The notes beneath the pieces were generated by a model. The model had not been told where the DNA came from. It was given only the letters and a program-made list of their open reading frames with translations, and made no database searches. This document shows positions 4,896-26,441 of a DNA stretch of 64,000 nt, piece after piece. Origin of the DNA: an uncultured Bacteroidia bacterium (GTDB taxonomy: Bacteria; Bacteroidota; Bacteroidia; Bacteroidales; UBA932); NCBI GenBank assembly GCA_902785785.1, contig CADAAA010000001.1, forward strand, positions 454,291-518,290, written 5' to 3'. The translations under genes and the position numbers were made by a program. Each line of letters opens with the position of its first letter. Position 1 is the stretch's first letter.

Positions 4896-6236
4896 ATGGA
4901 CACGATGAAAAGACGCCGTTTCCCGAACACTTACGTGATCCTTTCGATCCTTATAGTGTTGTGCGCCCTGGCCACGCTTGTCGTGCCGCCGGGACAGTAT
5001 GTCACCGCGGCGGACGGAAGCGTGTCCTTCGAGTCCGTACCCCGCGCCCCGCAGACATGGCAGGTATTCTCCTCCCTTTATGACGGATTCGTCAAGCAGG
5101 CGGGGATCATCGTATTCATCCTCATAGTCGGAGGAGCCTTCTGGGTGCTCAACGCCACGGGTGCCGTGTCGTTCGGCATCAACCGCTTCATCTCCAGGGC
5201 GGGGAAGTACGACCGTTTCGTACTTGCGGGGCTGGCTGTGCTGTTCTCCCTCGGCGGAGCCGTCTTCGGGATGAGCGAGGAGACCATTCCTTTCGTGGGC
5301 ATAGTCGTACCGCTCGTCATCGCCATGGGTTATGACGCCATCACCGGCCTGCTGGTGGTGTATGTCGCGTCGAACATCGGTTTTTCTTCCGCTTTCCTCA
5401 ATCCTTTCACGGTGGGCATCGCGCAGGAGATGTCCGGCCTTCCACTCTTTTCCGGCATGGGCTACAGGATCTTCTGCTGGGTGCTTCTCACGGCCGTGCT
5501 TGTGGTGTTCATCCTCCTTTATTCTTCCCGTATACGCAAAACACCGCAGGCAGACCCCTGCACTTCATCCGCGGATACCAGCCAGGATGTACGCCGTCCG
5601 GCACTCATCCTGCTGACACTTCTGGTTACAGTCATCCTGCTGATCGTCGGTGTCACATGCTTCAAGTGGTACATGGCCGAGATTTCGGCATTGTTCCTGG
5701 CCATGGGCATAGTCGTAGGCATCCTGGGCGGCTTCAGGGCCAACCGCATAGCCGACGAGTTCGTTGCCGGAGCAAAGGACATATTCCCGGCTGCGCTAGT
5801 CGTCGGCCTGGCGTCCGGCATCATAGTCATCCTCCAGGACGGACATGTAGTCGACAGCATCCTCCACGGACTGGAGTCCGGCCTCGGAGGAGCGGGGAAG
5901 ACCGGATCGCTCGCGCTTATGTACGGCATCCAGACCGTGATCAACCTGCTCATTCCCAGCGCGACTGCCAAGGCTGCGGTGACCATCCCCATCATGGCGC
6001 CTTTTTGCGACATGATCCATCTCTCCCGGCAGGCCATGGTCATGGCCTTCCAGTTCGGAGACGGCTTCACCAACATGGTCACCCCGACTTCGGGGGTGCT
6101 CATGGCTGCTCTGGCCATGGCGAAGGTCCCATACGATAAATGGGTCAAATGGGCATGGAAATACGTTTTGGCATTGATTCTTGCAGGATTTGTGCTACTT
6201 TTGCCTACTGTGCTCCTGCCCTTGGCGGGATTCTGA
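4896..6236 (+). CDS. YfcC/DcuC-superfamily membrane carrier
   Basis: This 446-residue integral membrane protein has a cytoplasmic RRRFPNTY N-terminus followed by about 12 hydrophobic segments. The layout, with a periplasmic stretch after the first helix (VVPPGQY) and the motif FGMSEETIPF, is typical of YfcC-like proteins of the C4-dicarboxylate/basic amino acid carrier superfamily. The substrate cannot be told from sequence. The ATG at 4905 is an alternative start. It is followed after 30 bases by two MFS transporters and likely forms an operon with them, perhaps for uptake of peptides or amino acids (inference). Confidence 0.8.
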   Translation: MDTMKRRRFPNTYVILSILIVLCALATLVVPPGQYVTAADGSVSFESVPRAPQTWQVFSSLYDGFVKQAGIIVFILIVGGAFWVLNATGAVSFGINRFISRAGKYDRFVLAGLAVLFSLGGAVFGMSEETIPFVGIVVPLVIAMGYDAITGLLVVYVASNIGFSSAFLNPFTVGIAQEMSGLPLFSGMGYRIFCWVLLTAVLVVFILLYSSRIRKTPQADPCTSSADTSQDVRRPALILLTLLVTVILLIVGVTCFKWYMAEISALFLAMGIVVGILGGFRANRIADEFVAGAKDIFPAALVVGLASGIIVILQDGHVVDSILHGLESGLGGAGKTGSLALMYGIQTVINLLIPSATAKAAVTIPIMAPFCDMIHLSRQAMVMAFQFGDGFTNMVTPTSGVLMAALAMAKVPYDKWVKWAWKYVLALILAGFVLLLPTVLLPLAGF

Positions 6237-14871: not shown

Positions 14872-15741
14872 CTAGAGAGATATAAGTGAATCGATGTCAG
14901 GGGCTGCCCCTGTCATTACGGAATACCCGGAGACTGCCTGGTTCACGAGCCAGAGGTTTCCGGGTAAATATTTCGCCCCGGCGTCAAGCATCCGGGCACG
15001 AAGCAGCCCCGAGAAAGCGGGGTCGCGGTAATTGGCCTCCAGCACGAGAGGCTTCGCGGAGAAATCCTCCGCTCCCAGCTCCGCGAATACATCCAGAGCC
15101 ATAGGCAACGCATAAACGATGAAATCCGCCAAGCGGAGCTCCTTGCGGAAATCCTGGATATCCGCAACGCGGAATCCGTACTCCGGAAGGCCTTTGATGA
15201 ACGCCTCCGCCTTGGCGGCGGTGCGGTTCATCACGGTCGTGGCGAAGCCGCATTCCGCCGCGGCGAGTGCCGCGGCCTTGCCGGCTCCGCCGAGGCCCGC
15301 GACCAGCGCCGCCGGCCTCCGGCCGTAGCGTTCCACTAGCTGCGCCTTCACGAACTGATGAATCTTCACATGCGCCTTGCTTCCGAATGTGCCGTAGAAT
15401 TCATGGATGATGCCGGGGAAAAGCGCCTCGGCCACGGTGAGGATCACTCCCGTGAAGTCGGAATTATGCGCGCTGACCCCTTCAGGAGTCTTGACCAGAA
15501 TGTTGGCCGCGCCAGTCAATGCCACGGGACCGGATACGATTTCAGCCTTCTCGTAAGCCTTCTCCTTGAACGGGGCAGTGACGTTGACGGCCTTGTATCC
15601 CTTGAGGAACTTGGCGTAAGATTCTTCGAAATACTGGCCTTCGATCAGGTCGTAGCCGTATTTTCCATGGTAGGCGGTCTCGAAGAGCCTCGGGCTCTGC
15701 GAGTGTTCGATGGGATGTCCTATGAGACCGAAATCAGGCAT
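14872..15741 (-). CDS. aroE: Shikimate dehydrogenase
   Basis: The 289-residue enzyme reduces 3-dehydroshikimate with NADPH. The substrate-binding SQSPRLF and NVTAPFKEKAYE (catalytic Lys) stretches are at about residues 14 and 53, and the nucleotide-binding Gly-rich loop GLGGAGKAA near 148. A segment of about 25 extra residues before the Rossmann fold (FYGTFGSKAHVKIHQF) is longer than in E. coli AroE. Its start overlaps the end of trmH by eight bases; lysS-trmH-aroE form one operon. Confidence 0.93.
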   Translation of the reverse strand: MPDFGLIGHPIEHSQSPRLFETAYHGKYGYDLIEGQYFEESYAKFLKGYKAVNVTAPFKEKAYEKAEIVSGPVALTGAANILVKTPEGVSAHNSDFTGVILTVAEALFPGIIHEFYGTFGSKAHVKIHQFVKAQLVERYGRRPAALVAGLGGAGKAAALAAAECGFATTVMNRTAAKAEAFIKGLPEYGFRVADIQDFRKELRLADFIVYALPMALDVFAELGAEDFSAKPLVLEANYRDPAFSGLLRARMLDAGAKYLPGNLWLVNQAVSGYSVMTGAAPDIDSLISL

Positions 15742-16642
15742 TTCTCTGGCGTACGGCTTCGAACAGCAGGATAGCTGCGGACACCGATGCGTTGAGGGAG
15801 TCGAGCTCCCCGAGCATCGGGATGCGGATATGTCCGTCGGCGGCCTTTCGCCATCCGTCGGTGAGGCCTGTAGCCTCAGTCCCGACGACTATGGCCGTAC
15901 CGCCCGTCATGTCCGTATCGTAGTACCACGACGAATCCTGCAGCTGTGCCGTGTAAATATTTATCTTGTTGTCTTTCAGCCATTTGATGGCTTCTTCCGA
16001 ACTGCAGCAGACGACCTGGACGGTGAATACCGCCCCGATGCTTGCGCGGATGAGGTTGGGATTGTACAGGTCGGTCAGCGGATCGCATATCAGCACGGCG
16101 TCGGCTCCTGCCGCATCGGCGCTCCTGAGCACCGCTCCGATATTGCCCGGCTTCTCCACGCCTTCCAGCACCACCACAAGTGGCTTCTCCCTCATCTCCA
16201 GCCCGTCGAGCGTCCTTTCCTTCACTTTCACCTCGGCAATCATCCCCTCTGTCCCTCCTCTGTACGCAATCTTCTCGTACAGTTCCCTCGGCACCTCCAC
16301 AATCTGCCCCGCATTCTCAAGGATGGTCTGCAGCATGTCAAGGTTCGGGGATTCACTTCCCGGAAACCGTGCCACCCTCGGCATCGTAAGAGGGGGGGAC
16401 CCAAGCTTGCTTGGGGGGGGTCCGAAGGACGTTTCAGGGAGGTGAATCCCCGAACAACCTGTAATCTCCGGACAATAGAAAAGCGTGTCGATCTCGAAGC
16501 CGGCGCGGACGCAGTGCCCGAGCTCCCGGCGGCCCTCCACGACAAAAAGCCCCATCTCCTTGCGGAGGCGGGCTTTCTCCTGAAGCGCCAGAAGCGTCTT
16601 GACCTTGCGGTTCTGCGCCGATGTCACCGACTCGACCCTCAC
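15734..16642 (-). CDS. TrmH-family RNA 2'-O-methyltransferase with in-frame repeat insertion
   Basis: The 302-residue SPOUT enzyme methylates ribose in rRNA or tRNA; the exact target is not clear. Residues 1-60 form the small substrate-binding domain. SPOUT motif 1 is [16 protein letters not shown], motif 2 [10 protein letters not shown], and motif 3 SLNASVSAA. Residues of about 63-100 are extra and correspond to a structured repeat (16344-16454) that keeps the frame. Its ATG overlaps the lysS stop as ATGA and its end overlaps aroE. Confidence 0.9.
16344..16454. repeat. Cloverleaf-like palindromic element inserted in the trmH-family gene (111 bp)
   Basis: The outer stem pairs TTCGGGGATTCAC (16344-16356) with GTGAATCCCCGAA (16442-16454) and continues imperfectly to GAAAC/GTTTC (16463 side excluded; 16363-16367 with 16431-16435). 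Inside are three hairpins: CCCTC/GAGGG (16375-16379, 16390-16394), CCCAAGC/GCTTGGG (16400-16415) and GTCC/GGAC (16420-16430). The length is 37 codons. The core matches the element in aroK at 23365-23485. Confidence 0.88.
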
Positions 16643-23062: not shown

Positions 23063-23689
23063 TCACGAAATCAAGTTGGCTATGATGCCCGCCGTCTGCA
23101 TCGGCGAGATGTTGTCTATGTCAATGATATAGTCGGCCGCGGCGGTGTAGGCCGGCGTCCGCTCGGCCAGCATGGCCTCGAATCCGCCGTCCTTCAGCAG
23201 CGGCCGGTGGCTCTGGTCGCCGCCGAGGTGCAGCCGCAGCGTGTCTACGTTCGCCCTGAGGAAGAAGCACTTGCAGCGCTTCTTGATCAGCGCCGCATTC
23301 TCTGGTCTCAGTATCGTCCCTCCGCCCAGCGACAAAATAAAGCTGTTATTTGAAGGAGAATCTTGGTCCGGGTAGTTCCCTCTCGGAAACTGTGCCACCC
23401 TCGGCAACATAAGAGGGAGGGGCCCATCGTCAGATGGGAGGGGTCCTGCGGAGCAGGACGTTTCAGAGTGGGAACTACCCGGACCCAAAAGGAGTTCAGC
23501 CAGCGCTTCGGATTCGAGGTCGCGGAAAGCCTTTTCACCCTGCTCGGCGAAAATGTCGGCGATGGATCTCCCTGTTTTGTCCACGATGTACTTGTCCAGG
23601 TCGACAAGCGGCATGTCGAGCAGCACTGAAAGCTCCTTTCCGACGCTGCTCTTCCCGCAGCCCATGAAACCGGTCAGCGCAACTATCAT
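23063..23689 (-). CDS. aroK: Shikimate kinase with in-frame repeat insertion
   Basis: The 208-residue kinase phosphorylates shikimate. The P-loop GFMGCGKS is at residues 7-14, the shikimate-binding DLDKYI near 30 and FRDLESEAL near 56, then the SLGGGT motif. In ordinary shikimate kinases the FRxxE and GGG motifs are about 20 residues apart; here the gap is about 60, because residues of about 69-111 come from a structured repeat (23365-23485). The ATG at 23689, one base after the parC stop, gives the normal N-terminus. Confidence 0.92.
   Translation of the reverse strand: MIVALTGFMGCGKSSVGKELSVLLDMPLVDLDKYIVDKTGRSIADIFAEQGEKAFRDLESEALAELLLGPGSSHSETSCSAGPLPSDDGPLPLMLPRVAQFPRGNYPDQDSPSNNSFILSLGGGTILRPENAALIKKRCKCFFLRANVDTLRLHLGGDQSHRPLLKDGGFEAMLAERTPAYTAAADYIIDIDNISPMQTAGIIANLIS
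23365..23485. repeat. Cloverleaf-like palindromic element inserted in aroK (121 bp)
   Basis: The outer stem is 16 bp and perfect: GGTCCGGGTAGTTCCC (23365-23380) with its complement at 23470-23485. A second pairing GAAAC/GTTTC closes the core. Three inner hairpins follow: CCCTC/GAGGG (23398-23417), CCCATC/GATGGG (23423-23438) and GTCCTGC/GCAGGAC (23443-23459). The core sequence GTGCCACCCTCGGCA and AGGACGTTTCAG are shared with the copy at 16344-16454, while the outer stem is unrelated. Confidence 0.9.
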
Positions 23690-23690
23690 C

Positions 23691-26441
23691 CTAGAACAGG
23701 GTAAGGTCCTCGTCGTCATTGACTTCGGGAACGTTTATCTTGCTCATGTCGATGTCCGGGATATCAACCTCGTCCGGAGTGTCGATGATGTCGGACATGT
23801 CTATCTCGCCGGCGAGATTCTCCGGCTCCGCATCGGTATTCTCCTCTTCGAGGTCCTCGGGCTTGACCAGAGGCTCGGCGAATTCGACTTTCTTAAGATC
23901 CCACGAATGACACTTCTTGCCTTTCGCCGCGATACCCTTCTTGGCGATGTACTCCTCCGCATCGATGAGTTCCGGCTCCCTGTGGGCATACTTGCCTCCG
24001 AAGGTCACTTTCACCTGGGGATGCTTGTCCTCGCTGATGTCCACCAGGTAAGAGTTGCGGCCTTCCGCGATGAAGGAGACAGGGGTGTTGTCGCTCAATA
24101 CGAATGAGAAACGCTTGACATAGAATGCTTTGACCGAAGCGTCCCAGTACAGTGCCGTGTATGTCTTGTTAGGATCGAACTTCTCTATCTTCAGCACGTC
24201 GCCCTGATACTTGTTCACCAGGTCGAAGGACGTCGTGTAGAAAGTACCGTTCTTGAAGATGGCAAGGACCTTGTCGTCGGTCTCAAACTGGCCAAGGTAC
24301 TGGCCCCTTCCGTCCTCGTTGAGTTTCTGGATGTCGGCGTCGTACCAGATGTCCTTGCCGGAAATGGTGGACACGCCCTTGCTCTTGAGCTGGATGCGCT
24401 GGATTGGATTCTTGGACACGAGATTGCCGCGCGAGGTCTTGCCCTTGATCGCGAGAGTGGAGAAGTCATACTCCATCGACGACTTTTTCAGTTTGGCGCG
24501 CGGGCGAAGGTATATCCGCACCGACTCGGCCTCGCCGTTGTGGTTGGCCGTGAACCAGAGGATGGTCGAACCCGGAGCGCCGGTAGTGATGTCATACTCC
24601 TTGTCGCGCGTTACCGAAGTGATGGCGAAGCGTTTGGCATACGACACGGAGGTCTTGCCCTCCCGGTAGATCACGTTGTAGATCGTCCTCGAATCGTTCC
24701 TGTGGAATACCCCGACGTAAAGGAGGTTCTTGCCGAAAAAGGCTTTGTCCGTCACCTTGGTGATGATGTACTTGCCGTCCTTGCCGATGACGATGATCTC
24801 CGAAAGGTCGGAGCAGTCACAGATGTACTCGCCGTTGTCGTCGCGCTTGAGGCCTATGCCCACGAAGCCCTCGGCCTTGTTGGCGTAGAGCTTTGCATTG
24901 TTGTTCACAACCTTGGTGGCGGCGATGGTCTCGAAACTGGTGATCTCTGTGAGACGGGGGAAATCCTTGCCGTATTTCTTCTTCAGCCCCTTGAACCAGT
25001 CGATGGTATAGCGCGTTATGTGCGCGATCTTGTCCTTGACGTCGGCTATATCGCCTTCGATGCCGCGGATCTTCTCGTCGATGGCCTTGGTGTCGAACTT
25101 AGATATCTTGCGGACAGGCTTTTCCACGAGCTTTAGGATGTCGTCCATCACTATCTCGCGGGTCAGAAGGTCCTGATACTCCTTCATGCGGTCGAACACG
25201 TCGCCGATCTGCTCCTCCCAGCTCTTCTGGTCCTGTTCCAGGACCTTGTAGATGCGGTTTTCGAAGAAAATGCGCTCCAGGGAACTGTAATGCCATTCAT
25301 TCTCAAGCTCATCCAGCCTGATGCGGAGCTGTTGCTCCAGGATGTCGCGGGTATGGAACGTGTCGTATTCGAGGATCTCGTTCACATCCATGAACTGCGG
25401 CTTGTTGTCCTTGATCACGCAGGCGTTTGGCGAGATATTGATCTCGCAGTCGGTGAAGGCGTAGAGGGCGTCTATGGTCTTGTCGGGGGACACGTCGTTG
25501 GGCAGGTGGATGATGATTTCCACATGGTCCGTCGTCATGTCGTCGATCTTCTTGATCTTTATCTTGCCCTTGTCCTTGGCCTTGAGGATGGAATCGATGA
25601 CGATGCCGGAGGTCTTGCTGTAAGGTATCTCTGTGATGGCGATGGTGTTCTTGTCGATCTTGTCAATCTTGGCGCGTACCTTCACCACGCCGCCGCGGCG
25701 GCCTTTCTGGTACTTGGAGCAGTCGGCGTATCCGCCGGTAGGGAAGTCCGGGTAGATCTCGTAGGGCTTACCTTCGAGAATGGCTATGGAAGCATCCAGA
25801 AGCTCGTTGAAATTGTGGGGAAGGATCTTGGAGGCCATTCCGACCGCGATGCCCTCCGTGCCCTGGGCTAGGAGGAGGGGGAAGCGGACCGGCAGCTCGG
25901 TGGGCTCCTGGTTGCGTCCGTCGTAGGAAGTCATCCAGTTGGTGACCTTGGGGTCGAAGATGACCTCCTTGGCGAACTTGCTGAGGCGTGCCTCGATGTA
26001 TCGGGGAGCAGCGTTGGAGTCGCCGGTGAGGATGTTACCCCAGTTTCCCTGGCAGTCCACGGCGTAGCCTTTCTGGCCGATCTGTACGAGGGCGCCAAGG
26101 ATGGAGGCGTCTCCGTGAGGATGGTACTGCATCGCCTGTCCCACGATGTTGGCGACCTTGGTATAGGCGCCGTCATCCATCTTGTACATGGCGTGCAGCA
26201 CCCTGCGCTGCACCGGCTTGAGGCCGTCCACGATGTGGGGGACGGCCCTCTGCAGGATAACGTAGGACGAATAGTCAAGGAACCAGTCCTTGAACATCCC
26301 CGAGAGCTTGAACTTGCGGCTGTCGTTGCCGAGCAGTTTGTCGAACCTTCCCGACGGAACGGCGGACTCGTCCACCATCTCCTCTCCTTCTTCGAAGGAC
26401 TCCTGGGAGTCCATGATCTCTTCGTTGAATTCTTCGCTCAT
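23691..26441 (-). CDS. parC: DNA topoisomerase IV subunit A (ParC/GyrA family)
   Basis: The 916-residue type IIA topoisomerase subunit breaks and rejoins DNA. The active-site tyrosine is in AAPRYIEARLS (about Tyr148), preceded by the YHPHGDAS segment. A coiled-coil gate region (residues of about 380-480) is followed by the six-bladed C-terminal DNA-wrapping domain. It lacks a clear GyrA box and has an acidic C-terminal tail (EVNDDEDLTLF), as in Bacteroidales ParC. No parE is nearby in the window. The ATG at 26441 (MSEEFNEE) is preferred over an in-frame upstream codon. Confidence 0.88.
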   Translation of the reverse strand: MSEEFNEEIMDSQESFEEGEEMVDESAVPSGRFDKLLGNDSRKFKLSGMFKDWFLDYSSYVILQRAVPHIVDGLKPVQRRVLHAMYKMDDGAYTKVANIVGQAMQYHPHGDASILGALVQIGQKGYAVDCQGNWGNILTGDSNAAPRYIEARLSKFAKEVIFDPKVTNWMTSYDGRNQEPTELPVRFPLLLAQGTEGIAVGMASKILPHNFNELLDASIAILEGKPYEIYPDFPTGGYADCSKYQKGRRGGVVKVRAKIDKIDKNTIAITEIPYSKTSGIVIDSILKAKDKGKIKIKKIDDMTTDHVEIIIHLPNDVSPDKTIDALYAFTDCEINISPNACVIKDNKPQFMDVNEILEYDTFHTRDILEQQLRIRLDELENEWHYSSLERIFFENRIYKVLEQDQKSWEEQIGDVFDRMKEYQDLLTREIVMDDILKLVEKPVRKISKFDTKAIDEKIRGIEGDIADVKDKIAHITRYTIDWFKGLKKKYGKDFPRLTEITSFETIAATKVVNNNAKLYANKAEGFVGIGLKRDDNGEYICDCSDLSEIIVIGKDGKYIITKVTDKAFFGKNLLYVGVFHRNDSRTIYNVIYREGKTSVSYAKRFAITSVTRDKEYDITTGAPGSTILWFTANHNGEAESVRIYLRPRAKLKKSSMEYDFSTLAIKGKTSRGNLVSKNPIQRIQLKSKGVSTISGKDIWYDADIQKLNEDGRGQYLGQFETDDKVLAIFKNGTFYTTSFDLVNKYQGDVLKIEKFDPNKTYTALYWDASVKAFYVKRFSFVLSDNTPVSFIAEGRNSYLVDISEDKHPQVKVTFGGKYAHREPELIDAEEYIAKKGIAAKGKKCHSWDLKKVEFAEPLVKPEDLEEENTDAEPENLAGEIDMSDIIDTPDEVDIPDIDMSKINVPEVNDDEDLTLF

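Follow-up and report, generated by a model that had tools for sequence, protein, structure and literature searches.

Comparison of sequences within and between genomes places two inserts in conserved genes of an uncultured Bacteroidales bacterium in a family of palindromic elements, which have a covarying structure, are dispersed through the genome, and reside in frame in housekeeping genes, in both orientations and in several frames. Each copy has complementary arms of its own; in some copies shared between species the arms have changed in pairs, and in one case the core has been inverted. The two inserts lie in the window, that is, the whole stretch of DNA analysed (64,000 nucleotides). We propose a non-autonomous mobile element family acting as a folded single strand, and consider the chance that this mechanism holds as a whole to be about even.

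The element has a conserved core of about 65 nt, consisting of three helices and a covarying pseudoknot, inside an outer stem with copy-specific arms. The core begins with the hairpin P2, whose loop CCCTC pairs with GAGGG downstream, followed by P3 and P4; the whole element is roughly 110-140 nt long, in some copies up to about 165 nt. The features of the window are as follows (coordinates, strand, description).

15734..16642, minus strand: SpoU/TrmH-family RNA 2'-O-methyltransferase gene with the second copy (302 aa; Pfam SpoU_methylase, 2.9e-37)
16343..16455, plus strand: element copy 2, 113 nt, antisense to the TrmH-family gene (arms 16343-16367 and 16431-16455)
23063..23719, minus strand: aroK-like shikimate kinase gene with insert (218 aa; Pfam SKI, 1.6e-33, split over two stretches)
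23365..23485, plus strand: element copy 1, 121 nt, antisense to aroK, with inverted arms (about 41 extra in-frame residues)
23365..23390, plus strand: left arm of the outer stem P1 of copy 1, private to this copy (26 nt, 92% complementary to 23460-23485)
23391..23409, plus strand: hairpin P2 of copy 1, its loop CCCTC (23398-23402) being one side of the pseudoknot (covariation; positions counted)
23413..23417, plus strand: GAGGG of copy 1, the other side of the pseudoknot (exact complement of the loop downstream, in 100 of 102 copies)
23423..23438, plus strand: hairpin P3 of copy 1, CCCATC-GTCA-GATGGG (covariation, folding)
23443..23459, plus strand: hairpin P4 of copy 1, GTCCTGC-GGA-GCAGGAC (covariation, folding)
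23460..23485, plus strand: right arm of the outer stem P1 of copy 1, pairing with the left arm

An earlier note on this DNA had described the aroK insert as a structured repeat related to one in the TrmH-family gene, and on these points it was right: the core strings are common to both inserts, each of which reads ETS...PRVA.FP. The insert at 23365-23485 is real, with 26-nt inverted arms and a dispersed family behind it. The outer arms of the two copies (25 nt and 92% complementary in copy 2) are unrelated in sequence, the common part being the core and the innermost GGAAAC/GTTTC. Both copies fold far beyond shuffled sequences, as DNA or RNA and on either strand; for copy 1 folded as DNA, z is -8.6 on the plus strand and -9.3 on the minus strand, with none of 200 shuffles as stable.

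In the TrmH-family gene, the SpoU_methylase match and a match to MRM3-like_sub_bind (Pfam, 5.6e-14) flank the insert on opposite sides, and NCBIfam shikimate kinase models match the aroK-like ORF below their cut-offs. The separation of two catalytic motifs by about 40 residues, also claimed earlier, is borne out by an alignment of 11 AroK proteins: there the FRxxE helix and the GGG strand are further apart in the window's protein than in most of the others, by about 40 residues. The same interval holds an insert of its own in the protein of genome G007 (locus L016) and a shorter extra stretch in that of locus L027. The AlphaFold2 model of the window's AroK, built from 11 sequences, has pLDDT below 50 at residues 85-112, where the insert lies, and shows neither helices nor strands over residues 79-126, the remaining fold being largely confident.

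Further copies, on whose existence the note had made its reading depend, were found both in this genome and in its relatives. A BLAST search of the window's genome gave 17 matches, of which one was the query and two were of its own arms; the other 14 lay elsewhere in the genome. A covariance model, built from 13 copies (L006 was omitted from the model alignment, its arms being out of register), matched 82 of 101 genomes of the same genus, with 908 matches in total, a median of 10 per positive genome and a range of 0 to 33; these counts include some copies matched on both strands (three double matches are visible). The same-genus and order-wide scans were run with stricter filters on samples of larger groups, and the window's own genome had 17 matches in the former and 15 in the latter. 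In the order as a whole 4 of 198 genomes match, one of them the window's own; the others (3 of 197) comprise one from another genus of the same family and two from other families. Within the genome collection at least 119 stretches contain the exact core pattern, and all 80 matches listed are titled Bacteroidales or Bacteroidia, ruminants being the source of many. Viral carriage was dropped as an explanation because the viral collection yielded no match to the exact core pattern. Rfam gave only mir-642 in the window between 16200 and 23700, at 29.6 against a gathering score of 90 bits, and nothing at the gathering threshold in seven diverse loci; nor did the literature searched, mostly papers available without subscription, contain a description of the family. 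Two loci of different genomes (L090 in G077 and L051 in G048) have 3.1 kb around a copy at 99.9% identity, suggesting recent transfer or mis-binning. Locus L082 has copies at 2028-2138 and 4931-5039, 2.9 kb apart, in opposite orientation and with identical arms, probably a local duplication.

The core was analysed in 34 diverse sequences, which we picked from 86 distinct ones. In these 92.3% of the cells are paired, both sides have changed in 94 cells against a shuffled mean of 26, and covariation is 0.303, whereas slid partners give no more than 0.108. For four of the five measures no shuffle out of 500 did as well; further pair types, the remaining measure, did not exceed shuffles (reached by 302 of 500). 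The pseudoknot was counted in the 102 of 104 copies with a locatable loop: 100 have the exact complement of the loop within 22 nt and two are mismatched. Twelve of the 100 matching copies have altered loops together with a matching partner (CCCGT/ACGGG, CCCGC/GCGGG, CCCAT/ATGGG, CCCCC/GGGGG). GNA triloops occur in 48 of the 95 hairpins that were detected, P3 having been picked up in place of P4 in some cases, and are not taken as evidence for DNA. Some copies of genome G106 (L072 166-325 and L078 2042-2205) have an extra hairpin within the P3 loop. In dnaX of the window's genome (L014 1442-1557) there is a variant core, CGTGCCGCCCTCGG, with adjoining fragments of further copies; this locus and a BLAST fragment (G000:C1:70375-70398) have the appearance of nested or decayed copies.

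The outer stem was studied in 83 copies, three opposite-strand matches having been dropped; the set is not random, because it was drawn from the window's genome and from high-scoring copies of seven others (G106, G109, G077, G076, G070, G081 and G015). All 83 have the stem, which the search model itself contains, with 21-34 pairs (median 29). After reverse-complementing, arm identity is 88% within a copy against 36% between copies; arm lengths differ among copies, and there is a weak lineage-specific pattern in the arms. Among the stem mismatches on the element strand G.T is more frequent than A.C (28 vs 10, p=0.005) in the fairest count, made with no folding program; the ratio is 76 to 51 without register control and 74 to 15 on folded stems, the latter count being biased towards G.T. 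The excess of G.T on the element strand points to folding of that single strand. Self-folding of single arms has a mean rank of 0.36 against 0.5, with 15 of the 83 arms ranking 0.05 or lower, which is suggestive only.

Small size, terminal inverted repeats and many copies are shared with MITEs, also non-autonomous, so that transposition of a classical MITE by a DDE transposase has to be considered. This reading requires ends that the element does not have, since its arms are not common to copies (the 36% identity given above) and no target duplication was detected: in the 83 copies the mean is 3.72 nt against 3.60 nt for shuffled partners, no clear excess, and flanking repeats of at least 6 nt number 8 against a shuffled mean of 3.3 and a shuffled maximum of 8. 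DDE_Tnp_1, the sole DDE family searched, has no positive association with the element (it occurs in 26 of 82 positive genomes but in 10 of 19 negative ones, an opposite tendency with p=0.11) and no match in the window's genome. We set the DDE-moved MITE aside as quite improbable.

Thirteen of the 15 copies examined in the window's genome lie in genes identified by profiles, and all 13 frames are open. The host genes are those for TilS, TruB, RecR, MtaB, RsmE, ATP synthase gamma (AtpG), shikimate kinase, HemW, the SpoU/TrmH methylase, RibF, a UvrD-like helicase, UvrA and DnaX, the copy in the last lying beyond the matched domains; the two other copies (L001 and L006) are outside any identified gene. 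Eleven of the 15 satisfy a coding-score rule. Six of the 13 are sense and seven antisense, with frames s0 (four copies), s1 (two), a1 (four) and a2 (three). Among the 83 copies, from eight genomes, 37 are strictly in-gene (24 antisense and 13 sense) and use five of the six frames (15, 8, 7, 5 and 2 copies); the sixth frame is open in only six of the 83 elements, and two copies (L074 and L084) have no open best frame through the element. Only one of 17 copies of G106 (loci L065-L081) passes the strict rule, compared with 11 of 15 in the window's genome, so that gene residence differs by lineage.

These counts contradict the earlier claim that the inserts are read in the same frame: four frames and both orientations are used by the 13 copies and five frames by the 37, which rules out same-frame coding as the organising principle. 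At the TrmH-family site, moreover, the insert is read in at least three frames among species, judged by eye. The use of several frames, at a shared site and across copies, suggests that it is the nucleic-acid structure, rather than a single peptide, that looks conserved.

An intervening sequence acting at the RNA level, with normal protein being made because the folded insert is bypassed or removed by splicing, would suit inserts in conserved housekeeping genes, and both strands do fold well as RNA. However, seven of the 13 in-gene copies are antisense, so the mRNA would carry the complement; the open frame seen in all 13 would be unneeded if the insert were removed; no Rfam family matches at the gathering threshold in the loci scanned; and the AroK model takes the insert as a loop. 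We therefore give this explanation very little likelihood.

Comparison of orthologues revealed sites that are filled in some species and empty in others. For the TrmH-family gene 23 loci were tried, two of them without a hit, and 10 of the 21 aligned have this kind of insert at the same loop together with a model match in the locus. Of the 11 species aligned for RNase R, four (G015, G070, G096 and G009) have a filled loop and seven an empty one. The site of L088 is empty in G092 and G008, the two of four relatives from which it was extracted, and that of L089 has no clear empty form among the four of six relatives from which it was extracted. In AroK, the same loop of the G007 protein carries a divergent family member (L016 1724-1839) with 30-nt perfect arms unlike those of the window. 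The simplest reading is repeated use of tolerated loops, and site preference may account for the shared loops.

The empty sites also bear on the origin of the arms. If insertion involved the core only, and the arms were made in the process by copying target DNA in inverted form, arm sequence and length should vary by site, as they do; but neither arm is recognisable at the empty RNase R and L088 sites, although the loops there have diverged, and the weak lineage-specific arm pattern also speaks against such an origin. Arms as inverted target copies were rejected on the former ground, and we consider insertion of the core alone improbable.

Copies shared between species show how the element changes after insertion. 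In four pairs chosen for recognisably homologous arms, the core is identical at 269 of 282 positions (four gaps set aside) against 77-91% in the best-aligned flanks; in other pairs the core ran from 48/66 to 75/75. Changes in both arms and in one arm number, respectively, 0 and 6 in pair g103a, 5 and 3 in g103b, and 2 and 3 in g101; in comparisons wholly or partly out of register they number 4 and 7 for RNase R, 2 and 11 for TrmH70/15, 0 and 6 for TrmH15/08, and 5 and 4 for L116/L047. In most pairs compared, one-arm changes are thus not outnumbered by paired ones. The arms of L116 and L047 correspond, orientation included, while the core between them is inverted in one relative to the other. 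L095 and L117, which differ in orientation and have dissimilar arms, were left out of the flips and could have arisen by separate insertion events.

According to the account in PMC8604942, template switching between inverted repeats makes the arms uniform and turns the spacer round, and it would yield both paired arm change and the core flip without selection on pairing. It leaves the retention of the unpaired core and the G.T bias unaccounted for, and these need selection, recency or conversion from other copies. The core, compared with its flanks, is retained above the level expected of dead selfish copies. This retention would be natural for a host-maintained chromosomal element with a cellular role (protein binding, or chromosome or RNA biology), whose core is kept by selection at each locus; the presence of matches in 82 of the 101 genomes of the genus fits such a role, as does the fact that the reading frame is not the conserved thing. 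At the same time positions vary between species, the number of matches per genome runs from 0 to 33, with none in 19 of the 101, and copies lie in both orientations inside unrelated genes, which makes host maintenance rather unlikely in our estimation.

Under the mobile-element reading, the element would act as a single strand, in which the pseudoknotted core (P2 with the pseudoknot, P3 and P4) is closed by the long outer stem. A mobilising enzyme would recognise the core, and insertions would persist where the frame stays open and the loop tolerates a disordered peptide. Arm complementarity and core flipping would come from replication template switching between inverted repeats. The mobiliser itself would be an HUH Y1 transposase of the TnpA-REP/RAYT-like kind that works in trans, with single-stranded DNA as its substrate, which is the least secure step.

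The candidate family, PF01797 (Y1, HUH; E <= 0.001), is found in 75 of 82 element-positive vs 3 of 19 negative genomes (p=1.2e-10, phylogeny uncorrected); the 23 genomes counted as Y1-negative include G095, G098 and G111, which were assigned by elimination. The exceptions are seven positive genomes without a Y1 match, one of them with 14 element matches, and three Y1-bearing genomes without the element. The Y1 genes of the genus (L319-L338) form two subfamilies, one reaching 8 and the other 11 matches per genome, and both follow the same trend (p=1.1e-5 and 1.5e-8); two Y1 proteins, searched singly, gave no Pfam match at 1e-5. A search of 26 sources for typical copies next to Y1 genes found none around the 24 distinct genes scanned, which leaves Y1 a candidate mobiliser only. 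The scan did yield a divergent copy (L331, 35.6 bits) and a further match at chance level (E=0.057). The former, at L331 2598-2726 in G109, has a compensated pseudoknot loop and is separated by about 90 nt from a Y1 gene upstream of it. Other inverted repeats were found at the gene in 15 of 20 Y1 loci.

In 10 multi-copy loci, two of which are orthologous, neighbouring copies agree in orientation in six and differ in four. Hence the element is unlike a strict lagging-strand inserter, and no lagging-strand orientation bias was seen by neighbour orientation, a weak proxy. A single-strand mechanism fits the structure but not the inconsistent orientation of neighbours, and for this reason we place the mechanism as a whole at even chances and regard the Y1 step as doubtful.

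Likeness to the REP/REPIN-RAYT systems lies in the small hairpin elements and in the Y1 genes carried by most of the same genomes (75/82 vs 3/19, uncorrected for phylogeny), and the difference in the lack of a typical element copy beside the Y1 genes scanned. In REPINs it is the REP arms that are conserved, in the element the middle, its arms being variable. A constant 5' tetranucleotide foot (GTAG or CGTC) is a feature of REP/REPIN elements; the flanks just outside the arms of the element are little conserved in a general comparison. While REPs are described as 20-40 bp long (PMC3733652), the element is about 120 nt and, in the window's genome, mostly intragenic. A further likeness is that subclass 2.6 genes of Bacteroidetes are described as having atypical secondary structures on their flanks, of which copies occur at other places (PMC6006769).

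The earlier note had compared the inserts with the palindromic elements (RPEs) of Rickettsia. As described in PMC10969869, these are palindromic repeats of about 150 bp with many copies, a good part of them in frame in unrelated genes, and each encodes a conserved peptide; according to PMC6649704, the identity of the repeats is lost with time. The likeness stands for dispersed palindromes that keep the frame of unrelated housekeeping genes (13 of 15 copies in the window's genome) and falls for a single shared frame, so that the comparison is right as an analogy. By their descriptions, RPEs are set apart from the element by its private, co-varying arms, its pseudoknotted core, and its use of both orientations and of four (own genome) or five (37 strict copies) frames in place of one conserved peptide. 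In nematomorph mitochondria, perfect inverted repeats in coding genes show concerted evolution of their arms, for which template switching has been proposed (PMC6649704). The element resembles these palindromes in its inverted repeats within coding genes and in arms evolving together; in that account, however, the mitochondrial palindromes are described with no shared core or mobile family.

The element is a palindromic mobile element in coding genes whose architecture has no match among the described families that we found, as compared by their descriptions. It provides a data-rich case, beside Rickettsia, of mobile palindromes within protein genes, with hundreds of matches in gut Bacteroidales. 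A constant knotted core with private matched arms is unlike every family compared and makes testable how the element moves, and the copies shared by many species make arm co-evolution, core inversion and the tolerance of protein loops measurable. More tentatively, it could represent a new class of mobile elements, with a pseudoknotted core of single-stranded DNA (or RNA) that inserts with, or builds, a private complementary outer stem and is kept after insertion as a nucleic-acid structure and not as a peptide, the same tolerated loops of housekeeping proteins being re-used across the genus to give short disordered loops on core enzymes; we think this possible, although the balance is against it. 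A different in-frame insert, IPDQVGDDGGSVV, follows the RPLL motif in AroK of genome G003 (L022 1501-2055) and perhaps belongs to another repeat family.
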